Source of the DNA: Utricularia gibba
Taxonomy: Eukaryota > Streptophyta > Magnoliopsida > Lamiales > Lentibulariaceae
Assembly: GCA_002189035.1 (NCBI GenBank)
Contig: NEEC01000018.1
Location: 186,001 to 250,000 of the forward strand
DNA length: 64,000 bases
Direction: 5' to 3'
Positions 5,561-55,750 of this stretch are shown piece by piece (the stretch's first letter is position 1; the number at the start of each line of letters is the position of its first letter). The position numbers were made by a program, and so were the translations under genes. Under the pieces are notes generated by a model. That model saw nothing but the letters and a program-made list of their open reading frames with translations, did no database searches and had not been told where the DNA came from.

Positions 5561-5699
5561 ACTGGTGGTCTTTACACTCGATTAAAATAAAACTCACTCA
5601 ATTTTTGACATAGGCGAAGATTTTCACCTATGATTGATGGTCATCTTTTGTCTGGGTGGCGCCTCCCTCAAGTTCTCGTTGGAACTTTCCAATTAATCC

Positions 5700-38262: not shown

Positions 38263-40120
38263 GCTGAATTTTATGCACATCAATCTTATCATTAAGCATT
38301 CACGAACACTTCAACAAAAGTTTTCAAGAACCATTTGCAACTTAGGAACAAATAACGACTAGCATTCTCTAAATAGTCCATGCTAATCCATTCATGCATA
38401 GACACTATTTGTTGAATGACTATCGTTATATCCACACTAGGATTGCAAATAGTCAATAGCTAAGGCTTGTGCTTTCTTACCAATGTCTAAAAACTAGACT
38501 ACAATGTCATAGTGCTTCATGCACCACTGCATGATTTCTCTACGCACCAAGTGCGATGCCCTATATACCAAATGAAGAGTAGTGAGGATTTCTTTTGCGT
38601 TGCACATAGACAAGCACTGCAAAAAAAAAAAAAAAAAAATACCCAGAGTTCTACCAGTACATCCTTCACTCCGAAAATCTGCAAGAACACCAAGACGTGA
38701 GCCATACACAATGGCGAAAAGTGTGATAGTGGCATAGTGAAGCTAAGATCTTTATAAGGAATGGGGTGGAGGCAGCTTCAACCTATAATGAAAATGCTCG
38801 GTGCTCACACAAAAGATGGTGGTGCCAACTCTTTGCGGAGGTTCGGAATCAGAAGAATGTCCTGGTAATTTATCCCACATCACATAGGTTTTTGGAATTG
38901 AAAAACATGCTTGCAACTAATCTGCATAAATACCTGAACTCAACCTTGGAAATGTCATTTTCAGTGTGTCGTTGATTCAAGGTACACCATAGATGATGAA
39001 GAAGTGAAGTGGTAGATTATGTGCGGTATTGGGTGTTTGCTGTCGAGTGGTTTTTGCGGTGCTTCATCAGGAGAGTATGATGGAAGAGGAGGATGAAATA
39101 CTCATTGGAAATAATGCATTGTCATTAAGAATAATGAAGTGCCAAATGCAATTAATGTGCACAAAGAGGAATTGAATTCACATTGTGTAACTTCCAAGTC
39201 CTAATAAGTGGTGGTTACTTTTTCTTAATGATAATAATAATTTTATAGTGAGTTTTAATTGGAAAAAATGTATTATTTTATAGGAATTAGCATCTTACCA
39301 GGAATTTCGACATTTTAGTAGTAATCTAAGCTTTATTTTTACTGAAAAATTTGGAGTAAGTCAATAATTTAGTTTAAATCTTGTTCTTATTTTATTATTC
39401 TAAGTTAGCAGCATACACAAGTATTTCACATCTCAGGAGTCTATGACGAGTCATGCCTACTCTAAGAAATGAGACAGCAAATGGAAGTCTATGATAACAT
39501 AAAAAAGAGGGAAAGAAAGGAAGGTATACATGAATCAAAAAAACGGAAGGAATAAAAGAGGAAAGAGAGGATGAAAAAAAAGATGGGGATGATGAAAAAA
39601 AGGAGATGCACTAATTAAAAGTAGACTGCTTAGCATTTTATTTGGATTTAACTCTCCTATCATTTATTATTTATTTCTTGCTTGCAAGACTGACTATGAA
39701 GATATTTTTAATTTAGTTTTATGCAACTATTATATTTATTTTTAGCATGAGTGGTTAAATTAGGTTGAAAATGAGGATTTGCTCATTGCTTTCAATCCAA
39801 TGTGATCGAGTTTGTTTATTATTTTTGTAGGAAAGTTGGATAAATCCAAGAGGATAACTACCTAACTTAAAGGTAGACTAAAGAGTTAGATAGTAGAAAA
39901 GGTATGGGCAGACTTAGGCTCTCGTGTGGTAATTAATCTGTTAGGAGATATAGAATAAAAATATTGGTGAGTATACTATCACTAGAACTTTGAGGTGTTT
40001 CATTTTTTTTGTATGGATTAAAATTTAAGTTACAACATCTCTTTGTCCTTATCATTACTATTGCTATTTAAGTTTCACTTTTTTTTTTCCGAATAACCTC
40101 ATATGATTACCCTTTAGACG
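38263..40120. other. Unidentified sequence with a 19-nt A run
   Basis: No gene recognised. An A19 tract is at 38621-38639. On the minus strand it forms a T tract placed between a GT and a CAG that separate two short coding-like pieces (38500-38710), so it could be a relic intron, but neither piece matches a family I know. The rest is AT-rich with no signature. Confidence 0.35.
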
Positions 40121-46049: not shown

Positions 46050-47289
46050 TGTTGGGTTTCTCGTAGACATCGTATGTCTCAAAAGCAGCGGAATTTTAAA
46101 ATTTTGAGAAACCTCAAACGCAGATCTTGGAATACGATATACATCAGATGAAGGGATGTTCAAAATACCTTTCAAATGACTCCGTTGTTCACCAACTGCC
46201 AATAGCAGACGGCCTCTATGGTATCCACACGTGGAGCACTCCGTCGATAACCTTCTCAAGGCTCTTGAATGATGGTCGAATTCCTCAGGTACTAGTAGAT
46301 AAGAACGCCTCCTTGTGGATCAGTCTCAGAGAGCACGGAGACCTTGGAGCAAATCTCAAAATCTAAATCTTTTTTATAGATATTTTGTGACATATCAAAT
46401 CATATCTCTATAAGATCTTTTATTTTGAGTTTAATCAATATTAATCTCAAAATAGCTATCTATTTAATTTATCCACTTTACCAATTACATCTCATGTAAT
46501 TGTGTCATTCTATTTTATATCGATGAGTGAACCCACTATTGTGTGTGACCCTATAGGCTTCTTCAATCAAGGCTGTAATAATAGATTTATTAATTAACTC
46601 TTAATTAATCAAATCCATCATTATCAATCATGAGTGATGTCTAGCAACATATCATTATTCCCAAGATTAAAGAATAATTAGGTGAACTGATTGAGCCTTT
46701 TCATGACCAGCCACCATGCAATGAACAGATTTCATCATATTTATATCTCATTCGATACCAGAACATGAGTTTGTGTCTTTCTAATGTATCGAACTTATAA
46801 TTGCATTCAAGCACTAACACTCAATGACCTACTCAAACAATTTGAGTGTCATTACCCTTGGCCCAGGACTTACTGTTAGGCTTTGATGCAATTACTTGAG
46901 ATATGATCTCATAGCTAACATGAGTGATGTATCCTTTATTGATCAATCAACTATCTCCAATCTTAAGGAGTCACATCCCTAGTCATCCATACTAGGGAAG
47001 CCATGGTTAGGCTCCCATTAGTAATGAGCGAAAATGTGAGCTTAAGATCAAGATAACTTTGTTGACCTCAAGTCTAAGTTTACTTGCACGGCTATCATAT
47101 TCGAGATCTTGCTACTGACACTTGGTTAGCTTCCCATAGTAGCATCTCGAAGATGAGTCATCTAGTGAATTGATTCTCTAATCGACACCCATACATAAGT
47201 TCTAGTAATCTCATTACATCAATTGTGAGAAGCATTGCCTAAACAATTTAGGGAACTCAATGTGTGAAATGTGATATCCTCATTTCACA
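46050..47289 (-). repeat. 1.24-kb LTR-like dispersed repeat, family D (copy 1)
   Basis: Read on the minus strand it runs from TGTGAAATGAGG to CGAGAAACCCAACA and matches 59331-60578 along nearly the whole length with high similarity. TG...CA ends and size suggest a solo LTR. It separates the gypsy gag (left) from the PIF/Harbinger transposase gene (right). No target duplication was found. Confidence 0.75.
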
Positions 47290-47366
47290 AATACTTGCAA
47301 TTTTAGAATACGTGGTGCTGTGTCAATTAACTTATGTTGCCCGATTTTGGTGACTGTTGAGGGGAC

Positions 47367-48711
47367 ATGGATTTTTTCACAGAGGGTCATGTCATCTTGA
47401 GTGTGGCAGCAGTAGTTTTGTCTGAATACTTGGTGCAGATGAATGTGTTAGTATACTTACATTGGAAGAAATACCGTAGGGGATATAGGGTGCAACGCAA
47501 GTATTCGCTTACACACAAGATTCCTAGACAAGTTGAGTTTATTAGTAGGTTTGCGAGTGATGTGAATAGCGCATCCATTGAGAATTTGAGAATCAGCCGA
47601 GATGCGTTGGGTATTTTATGTAGCCTATTAGAAAATCATTCTAACTTAAAGGCTGGAAAATATGTAACGGTTCCAGAGATGGTTTGTATTTTTTTAGGAA
47701 TATTAGGTCATCATAAAAAAATGCGGGTGCAGAAGCATGTCTATGGGAGGAGCACCGAGACTGTGTCTAGATGCTTCCAAAAGGTGCTACACGCGGTGCT
47801 TTGCCTCCATGAGGTGTTGTTAGAGACCCCTGTAGTTGCTGCAGAATGTGCATCCAAAGGGAAGTTTAAACACTTCCAGGTAGACACATCTTTCATGCTT
47901 CATTTTACGAATGTGTATCCTAAAAATGATTATGCATCTGTAGGGTTGTGTTGGAGCCATAGATGGTACATACATCAGTATACGAGTTAACAACTGTGAT
48001 GCTGCAAGGTAAAGAAATCGAAAGGGGGTGATATCCACCAACGTGTTGGGTGTATGTGATGAACACATGAAATTTATATATGTGCTTGCTAGGTGGGAGG
48101 GGTCTGCTGCAGATAGTCGGGTGCTAAACGATGCACTCGCACGATCTGACGGCTTCCGTGTATGTCCAGGTATTTCACTTGTTTAGCCCTTGCACATGTG
48201 ATTCCGATGATTTTAGGCACCATGTATACGTGATGACACAGGAACATATTACCTATGTGACAATGGATACGCCAATAGGGAGGGCTTTTTGGCACCATAC
48301 CGTGGGGTCCGTTGCCACTTGAAGGAGTGGGGTCAGGGAAGTGGTGCGCCACAGAATGCAAAGGAGCTATTCAACATGCGGCATGCATCAGCAAGAAATG
48401 TGATCGAACGAGCTTGGGGCTTGATGAAGATGCGGTGAGGTATACTACGGACGGCTAGCTACTATTTCGTAGACACACAGAAACACATTGTATTAGCATG
48501 TGCTTTACTGCATAACCTCATTCGAAAGGAGATGGTGGTCGATCCCCTGGAGGATCAGGTTCCATTGGACTTCCAGGATGAAGCTGGGGATAAGAGTGAT
48601 TCAGAAGACGTCACGACATCTGCCGGAGGCAGTCAGGCATGGAATAGGTGGCGTGACCAGCAAGCCGAGAGGATGTACACCGAGTGGCTGGCATCCCGCA
48701 GACGCCGCTAG
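47367..48711 (+). pseudogene. PIF/Harbinger DDE transposase (HARBI1-like nuclease), two nonsense mutations
   Basis: Predicted exons 47367-47879, 47944-48169 and 48242-48711 with GT-AG introns of 64 and 72 bp give 402 residues. The N-terminal part ends with VPEMVCIFLGILGHHKKMR and RSTETVSRCFQKVLHAVL. The catalytic domain has VGAIDGTYI (D178), LCDNGYANREGFLAPYRG (D253) and ARNVIERAWGLMK (E302), so all three DDE acids are present, with D2 and E separated by 48 residues. It should cut and paste the element in the nucleus with help from the Myb-like partner (family knowledge). Stops: TAA at 48010 (expected Tyr in AARYRNRKG) and TGA at 48436 (expected Trp before GILR). Each needs a single base change, so inactivation looks recent. 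Confidence 0.9.
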
Positions 48712-48948
48712 TGTAGCACTGTATTAGTAATTGTCGTGCTAGTGGTTTTCTTGAATTCCCGTTCAAGACCTATCGTGTCGTTTTGTACTGTATTGCTAAG
48801 CACAACTATGTGCTTAGCAAAGCCATGTCCCAAAATCCCGTTTGTACTCCAACTTGAACTTGAAATTGCCGAGTATTTGGTAGTTGCTGCACAAATTGTT
48901 GGGATTGTACCATACTGTCATGTCTTAACATGATGGATCATTGGAGCC

Positions 48949-49400
48949 AACACCGCGATCTTCAGTTGAGGTGCTACAGAGACTTGATGGACACCACATT
49001 TGTTGGTAGCACCACATGTTTCATCGTATCCGGTGCTGATAAAAATTAGATATTAGATGAGTGGGAAGCTGGTGCATAGTAGGAGGGTAGTTGGCAGAAC
49101 AGGAATGCGCCTTTTCACCAAACACCGTGATCTGTAAACTCTGGTGCTTCGGAACGCCTGGGCTATGCCCCGTTTAGTGCTGCACCGCATGCTTCCTCAT
49201 ATCCGGTGCTGACAAGATTTAGTAGTACATGCGTATGCACTTGGAGCATATTATCGTGGGTGATTAGTAGTACAATAATACTCCTTGTAATTAAACACTG
49301 CGAAAACATAATCCAGTGTTTATAAATACCTGAGCTACGCTACGCATTCTGCAGCACCGCGAAATGTGTATCCGGTGTTCTGAGTTCCATAAACAAATCG
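48949..49400. repeat. About 172-bp degenerate tandem repeat, 2.5-3 copies
   Basis: Anchor motifs recur in register: 'aacaccgcgatc' at 48949, 'aacaccgtgatc' at 49121, 'aacactgcgaa' at 49294, and 'tatccggtg' at 49027, 49200 and 49369. The spacing is 169-173 bp. It lies between the PIF/Harbinger transposase gene and the third open frame. Confidence 0.75.
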
Positions 49401-49679
49401 GCAAAAAATATTGCAGTTATCTAGCATTAAATGAGAAGGGCGGTTGACAACCGCCCAGTGCTATTAATATCCCCACTGCGCACAATAAAGGCGCTTGACA
49501 TTGTGCACTTTCTAAAACAACTTCATTAACTCCTCCCATCCAACTCCACCCTTTCGGCAAACGTGCAGCAGCACCGTGAAAACCGATCCTCGAAAAATTC
49601 TCAAGAACAGCGTCGCGACTAACACGTGTTTCAAATTCTTCGTTGCCATCGTTGACTAACACGCTCCTTGTTTTCCAGA

Positions 49680-50536
49680 TGTTGAAGTGTGAGAAACTAC
49701 ATATTCGCTTCTCAATTCATGACAGTTACACGATATGGGATAAACAGCCGGGTGAAACGTCGGACGGCGAACCGTCATCCAGAGGTGGAACATCGGGATT
49801 CACTGTCACCACCGAGCACTTTCGGTGTGGATTGCGACTCCCCCGCCCCTTTCTTGGTGCAGATACTTGCTGCACTCCAGATCCCATTCTCCCACCTCAC
49901 ACCACGTTCTGTGGCGCACATTCTCACATTTCTGCAGATCTGTGAAGAAGAGGACATACCCCTGGAAATGCGTGTCATCTTTGCGGTTTCTGTTTGTGTC
50001 CAACACAAGGGGAGTCCGCACTACTCGCTTCATGGAAAACCTGGTGTGGTTCTTGTTATAGACGTGAGAAAGGCATATGATGATTGGTGGACCAGTTTTG
50101 TATGGGTATGCCCACCCACCGCTATAGAATGGTCAACAACGTTGATAGTGTCAGAGAGTGTAGGACACCCATCCGGTAACCATACAGAATAATTTCGGTG
50201 TTGCACACATCTTGTGCAACAGTACTCATGTTTGTTGATGTTTTTGTTGTAGGCATAGAGGTGTTGCCGAAACGTGCGGCAAGGAGGTTCGTGAATTTGT
50301 TCTCTTGCAGAACAAAGTCCTTTGGAGGACGTCTTGCCCCCTTCGTCAATGCCCCTAAGACACAGCATCTGTGGTGCGGAACCCCTCGACACCGTCGACA
50401 ATGTACGAGTACAAATGATGATCCTGAGGAGGTGACCCATGAAGAGCAAGAAGATGTGCAGCCAGAAGTCAGGGGCAATACGGATGGGCCAACACCGATC
50501 TGGAATCACGATGACGGGTGTGGTGCTATCCTTTGA
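49680..50536 (+). CDS. Third open frame inside the PIF/Harbinger element, resembling the globular domain of plant retroelement gag-like proteins
   Basis: An open frame spans 49689-50192, with its first in-frame ATG at 49719, after a possible splice acceptor at 49678. It reads FGVDCDSPAPFLVQILAALQ, then HLTPRSVAHILTFLQICEEE, HYSLHGKPGVVLV and DDWWTSFVWV. This order resembles the plant retroelement proteins called 'putative gypsy type transposon' (PF04195-like), recalled from memory. A second open stretch from about 50249 to 50536 (LPKRAARRFVNLFSC, then acidic DDPEEVTHEEQEDVQ) follows a possible acceptor and could be its next exon. Known two-gene PIF elements do not need such a protein, so it may be a captured fragment or an accessory gene. 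A shadow frame on the minus strand (50030-50545) looks less protein-like. Confidence 0.4.
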
Positions 50537-50624
50537 AGTGCTCATATCAGTTTAAAAGATGATTAGAAGACGAAATACATCTAGTCCATGACTCCAACAT
50601 AAGGCGGAGCACCACACAACAGAT

Positions 50625-51675
50625 TTAAGATCTACTTTCGGATACTAAACCATGCACAATAAGCTCTCTCTCATAGTCGCTAGAGGCAAGGAAATAGCGC
50701 AACCTCGCAGGGTTGGAACTAATCGTCTCTGCTATGGTAAAATGTTCGATGGCAGTTAATTGCACCGGCATACCTCTAATGATCTCCCTTGCCTGATGCT
50801 GATTATCCACCAACTCCCGTGCTTGCTGCACCACTATTAATCCCAAGTGACGTAGCTCTTTGCATGTGCGCACGTTAAGCTCCTTGATTTCTGTGATAAA
50901 CTGCACATCATCATCGATTCCCCTTGGTCCCATGCCGCTTTGTCCAGTGCGCCGCGTCAAGTCGGTGGTATTGTGTGATTCAGAGTCCCTACTAGGCGTG
51001 ACGTTCACACCCTCTGCAGCGCAACCAATTGGGGCACAAGGTGTGTCAGCATACGATAAGTTCATATCATGTCTAGTGCTATCCGGGTCCAGAGGGCAAT
51101 CCGAAGATACTTTCAGATTCTCCCCCACATCTTCCATGAATTTCCTCTTCTTGGTCATGGCTACATAGCTCATCGTTTCTTCTCCTGTAGCCTGATCCTT
51201 TCCAAAGATTTCTTGCCACTCCATGTAATACGGCCACGCCTTGTGTCTTAGGGCGCACAGTCTGGGTGCATGCTGACATAATAACACGGTCAGCACCGGA
51301 TATAACACAGCAACAACAGGGCATACATACCTGATCAATCTCCTTCCAAACCTCATCGTCTGCGTCTACGGTGTAGGTCAGCTCACTAAGACCGGTGCTT
51401 GACCATGATAAAAAATCTACAAGGAGGTAGTAGTCTTTTTTCCAGGTGTGAACCTTGCTAGATATATGGGGGTGTGCGTGGATGTCGGTTCTAGGTCGGA
51501 GTTTCAAAAACTCTATCTCTAACGCTCGATGATACCCACCCCTAAAACCATTCTCAATTTTCTAGACTTCTTTCACTATCTGCTTCAAAGCGTGTAACAA
51601 GTCTTTCTCTTCATCTGGCTTCCAGGCGCGTTTCGTTTTTTTGTGAGACTCTTCCACCACGTTTGGGCTATGCAT
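50625..51675 (-). pseudogene. PIF/Harbinger Myb/SANT-like accessory protein (ORF1), one nonsense mutation
   Basis: Predicted exons 51675-51331 and 51272-50625 with a 58-bp GT-AG intron give 330 residues. The N-terminus reads RAWKPDEEKDLLHAL, then KIENGFRGGYHRALEIEFLK, DADDEVWKEIDQ and PYYMEWQEIFGKDQATGEE, the order seen in plant Myb/SANT-like DNA-binding domains. The C-terminal half is acidic and helical and ends ESRS. In PIF/Harbinger elements this protein binds DNA and brings transposase to the nucleus and element ends (family knowledge). One TAG at 51564-51562 (residue 38) interrupts it. The start is the ATG at 51675; an upstream in-frame start is possible. Confidence 0.8.
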
Positions 51676-51900
51676 ACCTGCAATCTGTGCTGGAGGAAAG
51701 AAAACAGCAAGAACAAAGCACCTACACCGAACACTTACCACAAGTAAACCGTAAAATTCACTCAAAATTCAACGGATTTCAAACGAGAAACTCTGTGCAA
51801 CGAAGGGAGTATACAAACTAGATGTAACCCATGGCTCTTCAGTCTCAATTACTTGTGAAAACGAGAGACTCGTCAACCGACAGCACCGTGACAACGCACT

Positions 51901-52047
51901 GTGAAAGTCGGTGGACGAAGAGGGTAATGGTAATAAAGAGGAATATGTCTGAATGAGTAAAGTGGGTGTGAAAGTCGGTGGACGAAGAGGGTAATGGTAA
52001 TAAAGAGGAATATGTCTGAATGAGTAAAGTGGGTGTGAAAGTCGGTG
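51901..52047. repeat. 67-bp tandem duplication in the PIF/Harbinger subterminal region
   Basis: A unit beginning 'gtgaaagtcggtggacgaag' starts at 51901, 51968 and (partial) 52035. The first two copies are almost identical. Confidence 0.9.
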
Positions 52048-52199
52048 CACAAGTGTGAAATTCTATATTAGTAAATTCCCATGAAAATTATGTATAAACC
52101 CAATTTTATATCCACCTACCAAACGTGGGTTTATTTAAACCCAAATAATGTAAACTCATCAACCAAACATGATTCATAGAGACTAAATCCACAAAACCG

Positions 52200-52264
52200 G
52201 GTTCCCTAAACTCAAATATACTAAACCTGGGTTTAGTCCAAACCCAGCAACCAAACGCGCCCTA
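52200..52264 (-). repeat. Right terminal inverted repeat and subterminal region of the PIF/Harbinger element
   Basis: On the minus strand it begins GGGCGCGTTTGGTTGC, followed by internally palindromic GGGTTTGGACTAAACCC. It borders a TTA trinucleotide, the usual PIF/Harbinger target site. Confidence 0.75.
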
Positions 52265-52476
52265 ATGGTTCTTAGTAGTGAGCCATGATTAATGATCAAT
52301 AGAACTAGAAAATTTACAGGATGAAGTTGCTCATGTTCTCCGTGAACCATAGGGACTCCAGTAGGTTGTTGAGCGGTCATTTCTTTGTCAGTAGATGAAC
52401 TGGAAATTAATTCTTGCTTTTTCACCAGAAATGTGCGCTCAATCTCTGAATCTAAGGGGCACAAGATTTCCTGCAA
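52265..52476 (-). pseudogene. N-terminal gag fragment of the gypsy element
   Basis: Reads LCPLDSEIERTFLVKKQEL and then MVHGEHEQL, the start of Tat/Athila gag proteins. It is cut by the PIF/Harbinger end; the next recognisable gag sequence lies at 46049, more than 6 kb away. Confidence 0.65.
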
Positions 52477-52984: not shown

Positions 52985-55750
52985 TAGTCCTGAGCATGGA
53001 TACGGGTCAACTGGGGTGAGCCCCAAGTCGAGTCGTTGAACCTGACAAGTTACCTAGGTAACTTGTGAAAAAACGAATGATTTATAGCTCAAATTGTTCC
53101 CAGCCCAATGATTGCTCCAAGACTAATGACTGTTTCTTAATTGCTAATATGGCTTTTGTTTTTATTTAACATATAGTCTTCCAAGTTAACTTTTTGTACA
53201 CTCACGCCCTTGTTTCTCCATAAATCATAAAATTCAATGTTCTTCAATCCTTCATATTCTATTCAAAGTTCCAATCATTTTTTCTACAAGTTAACTTTCT
53301 GTACACTTCCCATATCTTAAATCTGTTTGTTTCCCCCTTTTTTTGAAACCCTAGTTGAGAATCAAAGAGTTGTTCATATTTTGTGTTTTAACCTTTCATC
53401 TCACCTTTTTACTTTGATTTAATGCAAAAGATCCATTGAACCAGTCAATTCCATTTGCTTTTCTTGACGTGAATGAATCTGAAATTCATGGAAAAAGCTA
53501 GACAACATCAACGAAAAGAAAGGGCGGCAATGTGTAGCATAAGCATTTCGAGCATGATACAGTAAAAAAAGGGTAATTTGTAAAATTTTCGTAAGGGATA
53601 TGAGCATGGTAAGGGTAGTTTAACTATGAATTATAATTATCATATTATGAATAAGCATCCTGATAGATGGGTGGGAAAGGACGGGGAGGAAAATCGTAGA
53701 CATAATACTTTGAATGTTAAAGGTAGTAATCTTTATGTTTCTAAAAAGTTTTTTTTATTTGTATAAAACTCAAATTGATTATATGCTTACTTTAATTGTT
53801 AGTGAACATTCTTTTTGTGAAATAGAAAATCCAATCATGCAACATTCTTTTAAAGCACACATGCCGCAACAATATTTTCCATTTTCCAGAAGAAAAGTCA
53901 TTAGAATTGTGTTTCAACAATTTTAGGAGAAAACGACTTGTTTAATTTCTTTATTTCAGTTTGAAATGTAAATTTGGATTAACAATGGATTGTTGGCATG
54001 ATGGGAATGGGGAGGATTATATAGTAGTTAAGGCTAATTGGATTGATGATAAGTGGCTTATGCAAAAAAGATATTTGGCATTTAGAGAATTTGATACTCC
54101 TCATTCAGGTGCTAGGATTGCTAAGTTAATTATAGATCATGGAATATTGTATCATTGATCGTATTTTTTCAGTGGCTCTTGATAATACTTCTAGCAATTC
54201 TTCTGCAATTTCAGCCTTGAAAACGTCAATGAATCCCATTCTAAAAAGTTCTTTTTTCTGTACTCACTGTGCTTGCCATATATTGAATTTATGTATTTCG
54301 GTGCTTTTATGGTAAATGATTTTTTTCATGTTCTTGGGACCTTTTAAAATTCAATTAAGTTGATGAAAAAATGTAATCCTAAGAGAGCTATATTTAAGTG
54401 AGTTTGTGAAGCTCGTATGATTGCTCAATTAGGTGGAATTCTATTCTTCATATGATTAATTCTTTGCTACCTTAGAAGCATATTATTCCATCTTTTATAT
54501 CAATACATGTTGATCCTATGATTGAGCTAGATTCCATGAATTTTACTAAACTTGAATGTTTCTGTGATTTGTTATCTACCTATGAAAAATTTATGTATTC
54601 ACTTAGTGGATTAGACTATACTATCACTCATTTAGTGTTGCTTGCTTTAGTTGGTATCTCTAAAGATTTTAAAAAATGTCTTGATAAAGGATTTCTTACG
54701 GAAGTTGTTCATAATATGGTTGACAAATTTGCAAAATATTTTCAAAATATTCATGTTCTATTTCTTGTGTCTAGCATTCTTGATCCAAGGGTGAAGGCTT
54801 CCGGTTTGCAGGCAGGTTTAAAAATGTATTGTGATTATGCTATTTTTCTTAGAATTCCAAATATTGAGTCTAATGCTTTGGTTATGTATGATTTAGCTAT
54901 TAATGCTTTGAATCATTTATATGATTTATTTGAGATTGAGTCAGTAGCTCAAGCACTAGAGCAGAGATGGATGCATGTGCTTGAAATGGGTTGGAGGACT
55001 TCTATGCCATGGTGTTTGGTTCTCCGTGCACTCTTTTAAAAGATAGTGAAGCTGCATCATATAATGCAATTCACTAGGAAAAACATAAAGGAGATGAACT
55101 AGATATATTAGGATGGTGAAAGAGTCAAACGTCTATTTATCCTACATTGGCTACAATAGCAAAAGTTATTTTTACACCACTATTGCTAGTGGGAGTGCCT
55201 TCAATTTACGTGGCTGCATCCTAATTCCCCACCGTGAGAGCTTGGCAGATAGCATATTGGAGGTGTGCGTTTGCTTAAATAATTGGGTGATTGCTAATTT
55301 GAGATTAAATAATATCACAATAGATAAATGAGATGATAATGACGATGCCTCAGAGAGTTCTGAAATTGATTAATTTTTTTAATTTAATTTTTATGTTTTT
55401 TTATTTAATATTTATAATTTGATATTAATAAAAATAAATTTTTTTAACTTCGCATGTATTATACATAGCCAGTCCTTAGCCTAATAAAAGAAGAAGGAAA
55501 ACTTTATTATATTTTTAAATAGATCATATATGAATAAAAATAGAACAATATTTTTTAAAAAATAAGACGAAAATACAGGTTGGTGATTTCATACCCAGGA
55601 TAGCTCAATGAGTCGACAAGTAACAAGTCAATCTAGGTACAATATGAGTTGGGGGTCAAAACTCGTTAACCCATCGTCTCATGAACCGATGATATGGCCA
55701 TGACTCATTTGACTCAATACCTCATGAGTCCTGACCCATGCCCAAGTCTA
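52985..55750 (+). mobile_element. hAT transposon, degenerate
   Basis: Inverted ends TAGTCCTGAGCATGG (left) and, on the minus strand, TAGACTTGGGCATGG (right) enclose a hAT transposase relic. The 8 bp outside each end (gtaatgaa and gttacaac) both correspond to 'gtaacgac' in the uninterrupted family A LTR at 12967-12974, as an 8-bp hAT target-site duplication would. Length is 2766 bp. Confidence 0.8.
53630..55335 (+). pseudogene. hAT transposase, degenerate
   Basis: Landmarks in order: SEHSFCEIENPIMQHSFKAH near 53805-53865, FGLTMDCWHDGNGEDYIVV near 53967-54022, PHSGARIAKLIIDHG, then IDRIFSVALDNTSSNSSAIS near 54150-54210, CACHILNLC, RWNSILHMINSLLP near 54430, LDPRVKASGL near 54783, DILGW near 55100, and the C-terminal dimerisation region with SGSAFNLRGCIL and CVCLNNWVIANLRL (55185-55310). 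The acids of MDCW and LDN are retained. Stops and frameshifts are spread along it, so it is inactive. Confidence 0.85.

Follow-up and report, generated by a model that had tools for sequence, protein, structure and literature searches.

The plus-strand frame at 49686-50192 of the window (the whole 64,000-nt stretch of Utricularia gibba DNA analysed here, G000:C409:186001-250000) is very probably what truncation has left of a genuine third gene that belongs to a PIF/Harbinger lineage; we give this reading a probability of roughly 0.83. As we read it, the full gene encodes a TRP28 domain (PF04195), a putative coiled coil and an FCP1/NIF-type HAD domain with a DxN motif. Its anatomy, recurrence, coding constraint and placement show that this is a conserved accessory gene within two superfamilies of DNA transposons, PIF/Harbinger and hAT. 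One accessory gene thus connects elements of class I with those of class II, since TRP28 is also carried by Retand retrotransposons. Our search of the open-access literature found no description of TRP28 in DNA transposons or of a TRP28-NIF fusion.

The third gene and its carrier in the window

The gene is flanked by a broken DDE_Tnp_4 transposase on one side and a minus-strand Myb-like gene on the other. The features of this part of the window are as follows.

46050..47295, no strand assigned: solo-LTR-like repeat; the same genome has 39 or more further copies that share its ends and are 91-93% identical
47296..52262, plus strand: left-truncated Harbinger body, aligned with the TIR- and TSD-bounded copies L024, L026, L027, L028 and L031
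47361..48708, plus strand: Harbinger transposase gene with broken frames; PF13359 scores 28.5 bits for 48217-48435
49679..49841, plus strand: third gene, N-terminal part of exon 1, with its ATG at 49679; in the window copy its frame differs from that of the rest
49842..50175, plus strand: TRP28 (PF04195) core of exon 1, a profile match with 84% identity to L024
50176..50252, plus strand: GT-AG intron of 77 bp, with splice sites conserved among family copies
50253..50526, plus strand: exon 2, truncated at the deletion junction 50526/50527
50628..51768, minus strand: Myb/SANT-like gene, of which 50628-51365 has about 150 relatives in the same genome
52222..52262, minus strand: right terminal inverted repeat (GGGCGCGTTTGGTTGCTGGGTTT...), with TAA next to it at 52263-52265

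The initial annotation had described a third frame of 168 codons or more between the two PIF/Harbinger genes, with borders resembling splice sites. The frame is present, is 168 codons long and belongs to a real gene, but it is not one single reading frame of that gene. Its first ~50 codons are in the wrong frame because the window copy carries a frameshift in the C-rich stretch around 49840. Here the relatives read the plus-strand frame 49580-49945, which runs MLKCEKLHIRF...GLRLPRPFL, matches the open N-terminus of L024, L027 and L028, and in the relatives stays open through GLRLPPPPFLVQ. The borders proved to be those of a genuine intron, with the donor G/GTAACC at 50175/50176 and the acceptor TTGTAG/GC at 50252/50253. 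Of 13 family copies tested, the window among them, 10 have both sites, with introns of 77-79 bp; in one of these ten, L032, the acceptor reads AA instead of AG.

A second frame, 50180-50536, follows the 168-codon frame. Its stop at 50534-50536 is accidental, as a deletion cuts the gene off at 50526/50527. At this junction the other copies carry an additional ~0.9-2.1 kb (~1.3 kb in L026, L027, L031 and L032) before their homology to the window copy resumes, and this sequence, lost from the window copy, encodes the remainder of exon 2 together with the exons for NIF/HAD. We looked for a HAD exon at the third-gene locus in the window and found none.

The assignment to PF04195 is upheld by the profile. 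The window frame scores 23.5 bits (E=6.5e-5), just below the curated cut-off of 26.2, while its relatives score 34 to 46 bits, above the cut-off, with a maximum of 45.7 bits in sister copies. The domain was matched in all 11 of the members sampled, each with an E-value below 0.01. A PDB profile search with TRP28 gave no match up to E=1, and a single-sequence AlphaFold2 model of the window TRP28 core had a mean pLDDT of 48, too poor for use.

Five copies (L024, L026, L027, L028 and L031) enclose the third gene between terminal inverted repeats that start GGGCG... and matching 3-bp target site duplications (TTA, TAA, TTA, TTA and TAG). The elements are PIF/Harbinger. In the window only the right end remains, followed by TAA; the solo-LTR-like repeat stands where ~400 bp of the left end, with the left TIR, would be expected, and homology with other Harbinger copies begins exactly at their junction, 47295. 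The transposase locus of the window (C409:233959-234516) matches PF13359 at 62.1 bits, and this transposase has over 100 relatives in its own genome. The Myb gene is best recognised through its equivalent in L027, with 28.2 bits for PF12776; the window piece is a weak match of 14.8 bits. All copies inspected in full were broken, and no working element was seen among them.

These elements resemble canonical PIF/Harbinger elements (PHIS) in their DDE_Tnp_4 transposase, their Myb/SANT-like second gene, their short TIRs starting GGG and their 3-bp TTA/TAA duplications, but differ in carrying a third gene between the usual two. Most PHIS groups surveyed have two ORFs, and Spy has one (PMC4482050). 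To the left of the right TIR, the window holds a perfect 67-bp tandem duplication (51900-52033). Pieces of a hAT transposase (53946-55039, plus strand) lie immediately to the right of the Harbinger element.

Recurrence, gene order and coding constraint

A protein search of the same genome returned 151 matches, which after merging correspond to at least 120 related loci; a capture confined to the window copy is thereby ruled out. This also disposes of the earlier suggestion of a capture event, made for the case that the frame was unique to this copy, as many copies are accompanied by both the transposase and the Myb gene. In 50 of 56 cases a transposase match within 8 kb of a TRP28-like locus is upstream and in the same orientation, and in 48 of 56 a Myb match is downstream and in the opposite orientation, where about 2% per locus would be expected by chance for either arrangement. 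The gene order is kept even in families (L033-L038) with a transposase only about 40% identical to that of the window. In some Harbinger families of the same genome the third gene was undetectable. The recurrence, tree and selection results presented here all concern this one genome.

Coding constraint is seen in comparisons between families, in which differences concentrate at third codon positions (for TRP28, eight pairs, p from 9e-3 to 2e-6). Within families dN/dS is 0.42 for TRP28 (0.29-0.62), 0.44 for exon 2 and 0.52 for HAD exon 4, the last with a confidence interval reaching 1.02, and none of these values is separated from a shifted-frame control. Because this control is not clean, our claim of constraint relies on the between-family codon positions. 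Singletons of family A are evenly spread over the three codon positions (26, 30 and 32). These patterns fit a coding constraint that acted over the long term and a subsequent decay of the recent copies.

The NIF-like half and its possible role

In full genes the TRP28 domain is followed by a stretch that by eye resembles a coiled coil, and then by the FCP1/NIF-type HAD domain, whose blocks read KLLIFDVNGVLADI, RPGARELIQFC and LNTLLIDDAPYKS. The HAD exons are present in nearly all of the copies that we fetched, including families that are just ~35-57% identical, and PF03031 was matched in 7 of the 7 joined HADs sampled (best E 1.1e-9).

A NIF-like locus elsewhere in the genome, L067, is 30-38% identical to the HAD half of the transposon gene. 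Its motif I is DLNGL, so that DxN is common to L067 and the transposon HADs, and its exon layout is similar. No TRP28 match was found near L067, and on this absence and its sequence we take the locus to be a host gene and a candidate relative. Given the likeness in DxN, exon layout and identity, the HAD half is likely to have come from a host gene family by capture, the probable source being the plant NIF-like DLNG family. The transposon version thus shares with the FCP1/SCP/NIF-type phosphatases (PF03031), L067 among them, the domain match and, with L067, the DxN and exon layout; it differs in being fused to TRP28 and carried by a transposon.

What this gene does for its carrier can be proposed from its domains. 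TRP28 would bind DNA, as is predicted for the Retand TRP28 (PMC11963269). The NIF-like domain would act on, or bind, phosphorylated nuclear proteins, such as the RNA polymerase II tail, a silencing factor or the transposase. The protein might in this way favour expression or mobility of the element, and the element may benefit by being expressed in the face of silencing or by having its transposase controlled. We offer this accessory regulator tentatively, at rather less than even odds; it suggests a testable function, nuclear phospho-regulation.

Motif I complicates this proposal. Active phosphatases have a second Asp in this motif, where the TRP28-NIF HAD has Asn: most copies read DVN (DVNGV) instead of the catalytic DxD, and catalysis by the NIF-like domain is therefore uncertain. 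The same gene may then have a different action, as a pseudophosphatase scaffold or a repressor of transposition and not an activator. The loss of the second catalytic Asp, seen also in the DLNGL of L067, speaks for such an action, while the first Asp and the DDxP motif, retained in most copies, speak against it; we consider it possible, but would not bet on it.

TRP28 in Harbinger, hAT and Retand-type elements

The TRP28-NIF gene is not confined to PIF/Harbinger. A hAT element (C213) combines a hAT transposase (PF05699, 53.6 bits; PF14372, 38 bits) with two TRP28 genes, of which one is TRP28-NIF, and is bounded on both sides by a perfect 8-bp duplication, CGTTAAGG. A related copy without transposase (C142) has its own perfect 8-bp duplication on both sides, ATTGTGTT. 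In 14 of about 19 close hAT relatives, TRP28 or HAD is kept downstream on the same strand.

The second TRP28 gene of hAT elements is free of NIF and was found in L039 (5191-5634), L046 (288-683, 44.8 bits), L065 and L066; these domains form a clade of their own. About 30 TRP28-HAD loci (e.g. C402:1731165, C414:355914 and C510:328645) have neither the Harbinger genes nor an upstream hAT gene. At least five of them have a convergent hAT gene, which suggests a further hAT lineage.

As the fusion occurs in both Harbinger and hAT, transposon groups seem to exchange accessory genes. We propose that the TRP28-NIF gene was put together long ago, with its HAD half probably taken from a plant NIF-like gene family, and that it was later shared between the PIF/Harbinger and hAT transposons of Utricularia gibba. 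Two DNA-transposon superfamilies carry TRP28, joined there to a NIF-like domain of probable host origin. This sharing parallels that of TET/JBP in fungi. Third genes on Harbingers are known there, and in oomycetes, where the gene is SET (PMC12730594). In those systems too, an extra enzyme gene is common to unrelated DNA-transposon lineages (PMC12730594); here the enzyme is another one, the host is a plant and the domain is fused to TRP28.

When 43 TRP28 domains were placed in a tree, the Retand, second hAT, hAT-1 and Harbinger family A, B and C domains formed separate groups, with one unassigned copy inside hAT-1. The tree is unrooted and resolves these groups but not their deeper order. Monophyly of the Harbinger TRP28s is not rejected (p-AU 0.21), so that transfers between superfamilies may have been one or several.

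The frame had initially been likened to a gag-like retroelement family, with PF04195 as the profile to search. Membership of PF04195 stands; gag identity does not. In a Retand-type element of this genome (L041 and L044) PF04195 is in antisense orientation downstream of the integrase, a position that rules out gag and is the one described for the PF04195/TRP28 ORF of Retand (PMC11963269). According to a 2025 survey, TRP28 is a feature of almost every Retand cluster with recent activity, its function and origin are unknown, it is reported only from TEs and no similarity to other known TEs was found (PMC11963269). The antisense ORF of Retand shares the PF04195 domain with the transposon gene, at 25-26% identity over the domain, but has a retrotransposon context and belongs to a separate clade. 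The NIF-like HAD is present in the DNA-transposon copies and was not seen in the retrotransposon copy that we examined.

An accessory gene acquired from a retrotransposon had also been suggested, for the case that other copies carried the frame. The gene is indeed accessory and recurrent; acquisition from a retrotransposon is not borne out, because of the additional NIF-like HAD, the same fusion in hAT and the unrooted tree. A specific form of this idea is that the antisense TRP28 ORF of a Retand-type retrotransposon was left behind in one Harbinger ancestor, where the frame has since been a passenger. In its favour, Retand is the best-known carrier of PF04195 (PMC11963269), and in this genome too it lies antisense downstream of the integrase. 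Against this, no LTR, gag or pol remains stand beside the third gene in the copies that we read, the gene has introns and a NIF domain, the Retand TRP28s form a separate, distant clade, and there is coding constraint between families. We judge this origin improbable.

Pack-type capture, in which a host gene fragment sits in non-autonomous elements without function for them, could appeal to the likeness of the HAD half to L067 and to its introns, but is highly improbable given that the gene order with transposase and Myb recurs in families ~35-57% identical, that TRP28 is reported solely from TEs (PMC11963269) and that the coding signature extends across long divergence.

The direction of transfer might also be the reverse: TRP28 could have arisen or diversified in plant DNA transposons, as part of a TRP28-NIF gene that Harbinger and hAT elements passed to each other, and Retand could have gained its antisense TRP28 from such an element. 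We hold this to be somewhat unlikely; if true, a DNA-transposon source would answer the question of origin posed for the Retand TRP28 (PMC11963269).

The window itself holds one further remnant of this domain and possibly a trace of another. A second, badly decayed TRP28(-NIF) remnant, nearest to the type of Harbinger family A, lies at 38497-38925 on the minus strand, and a short, weak trace at 5632-5685 on the plus strand (D*WSSFVWVAPP) may be the end of a TRP28.
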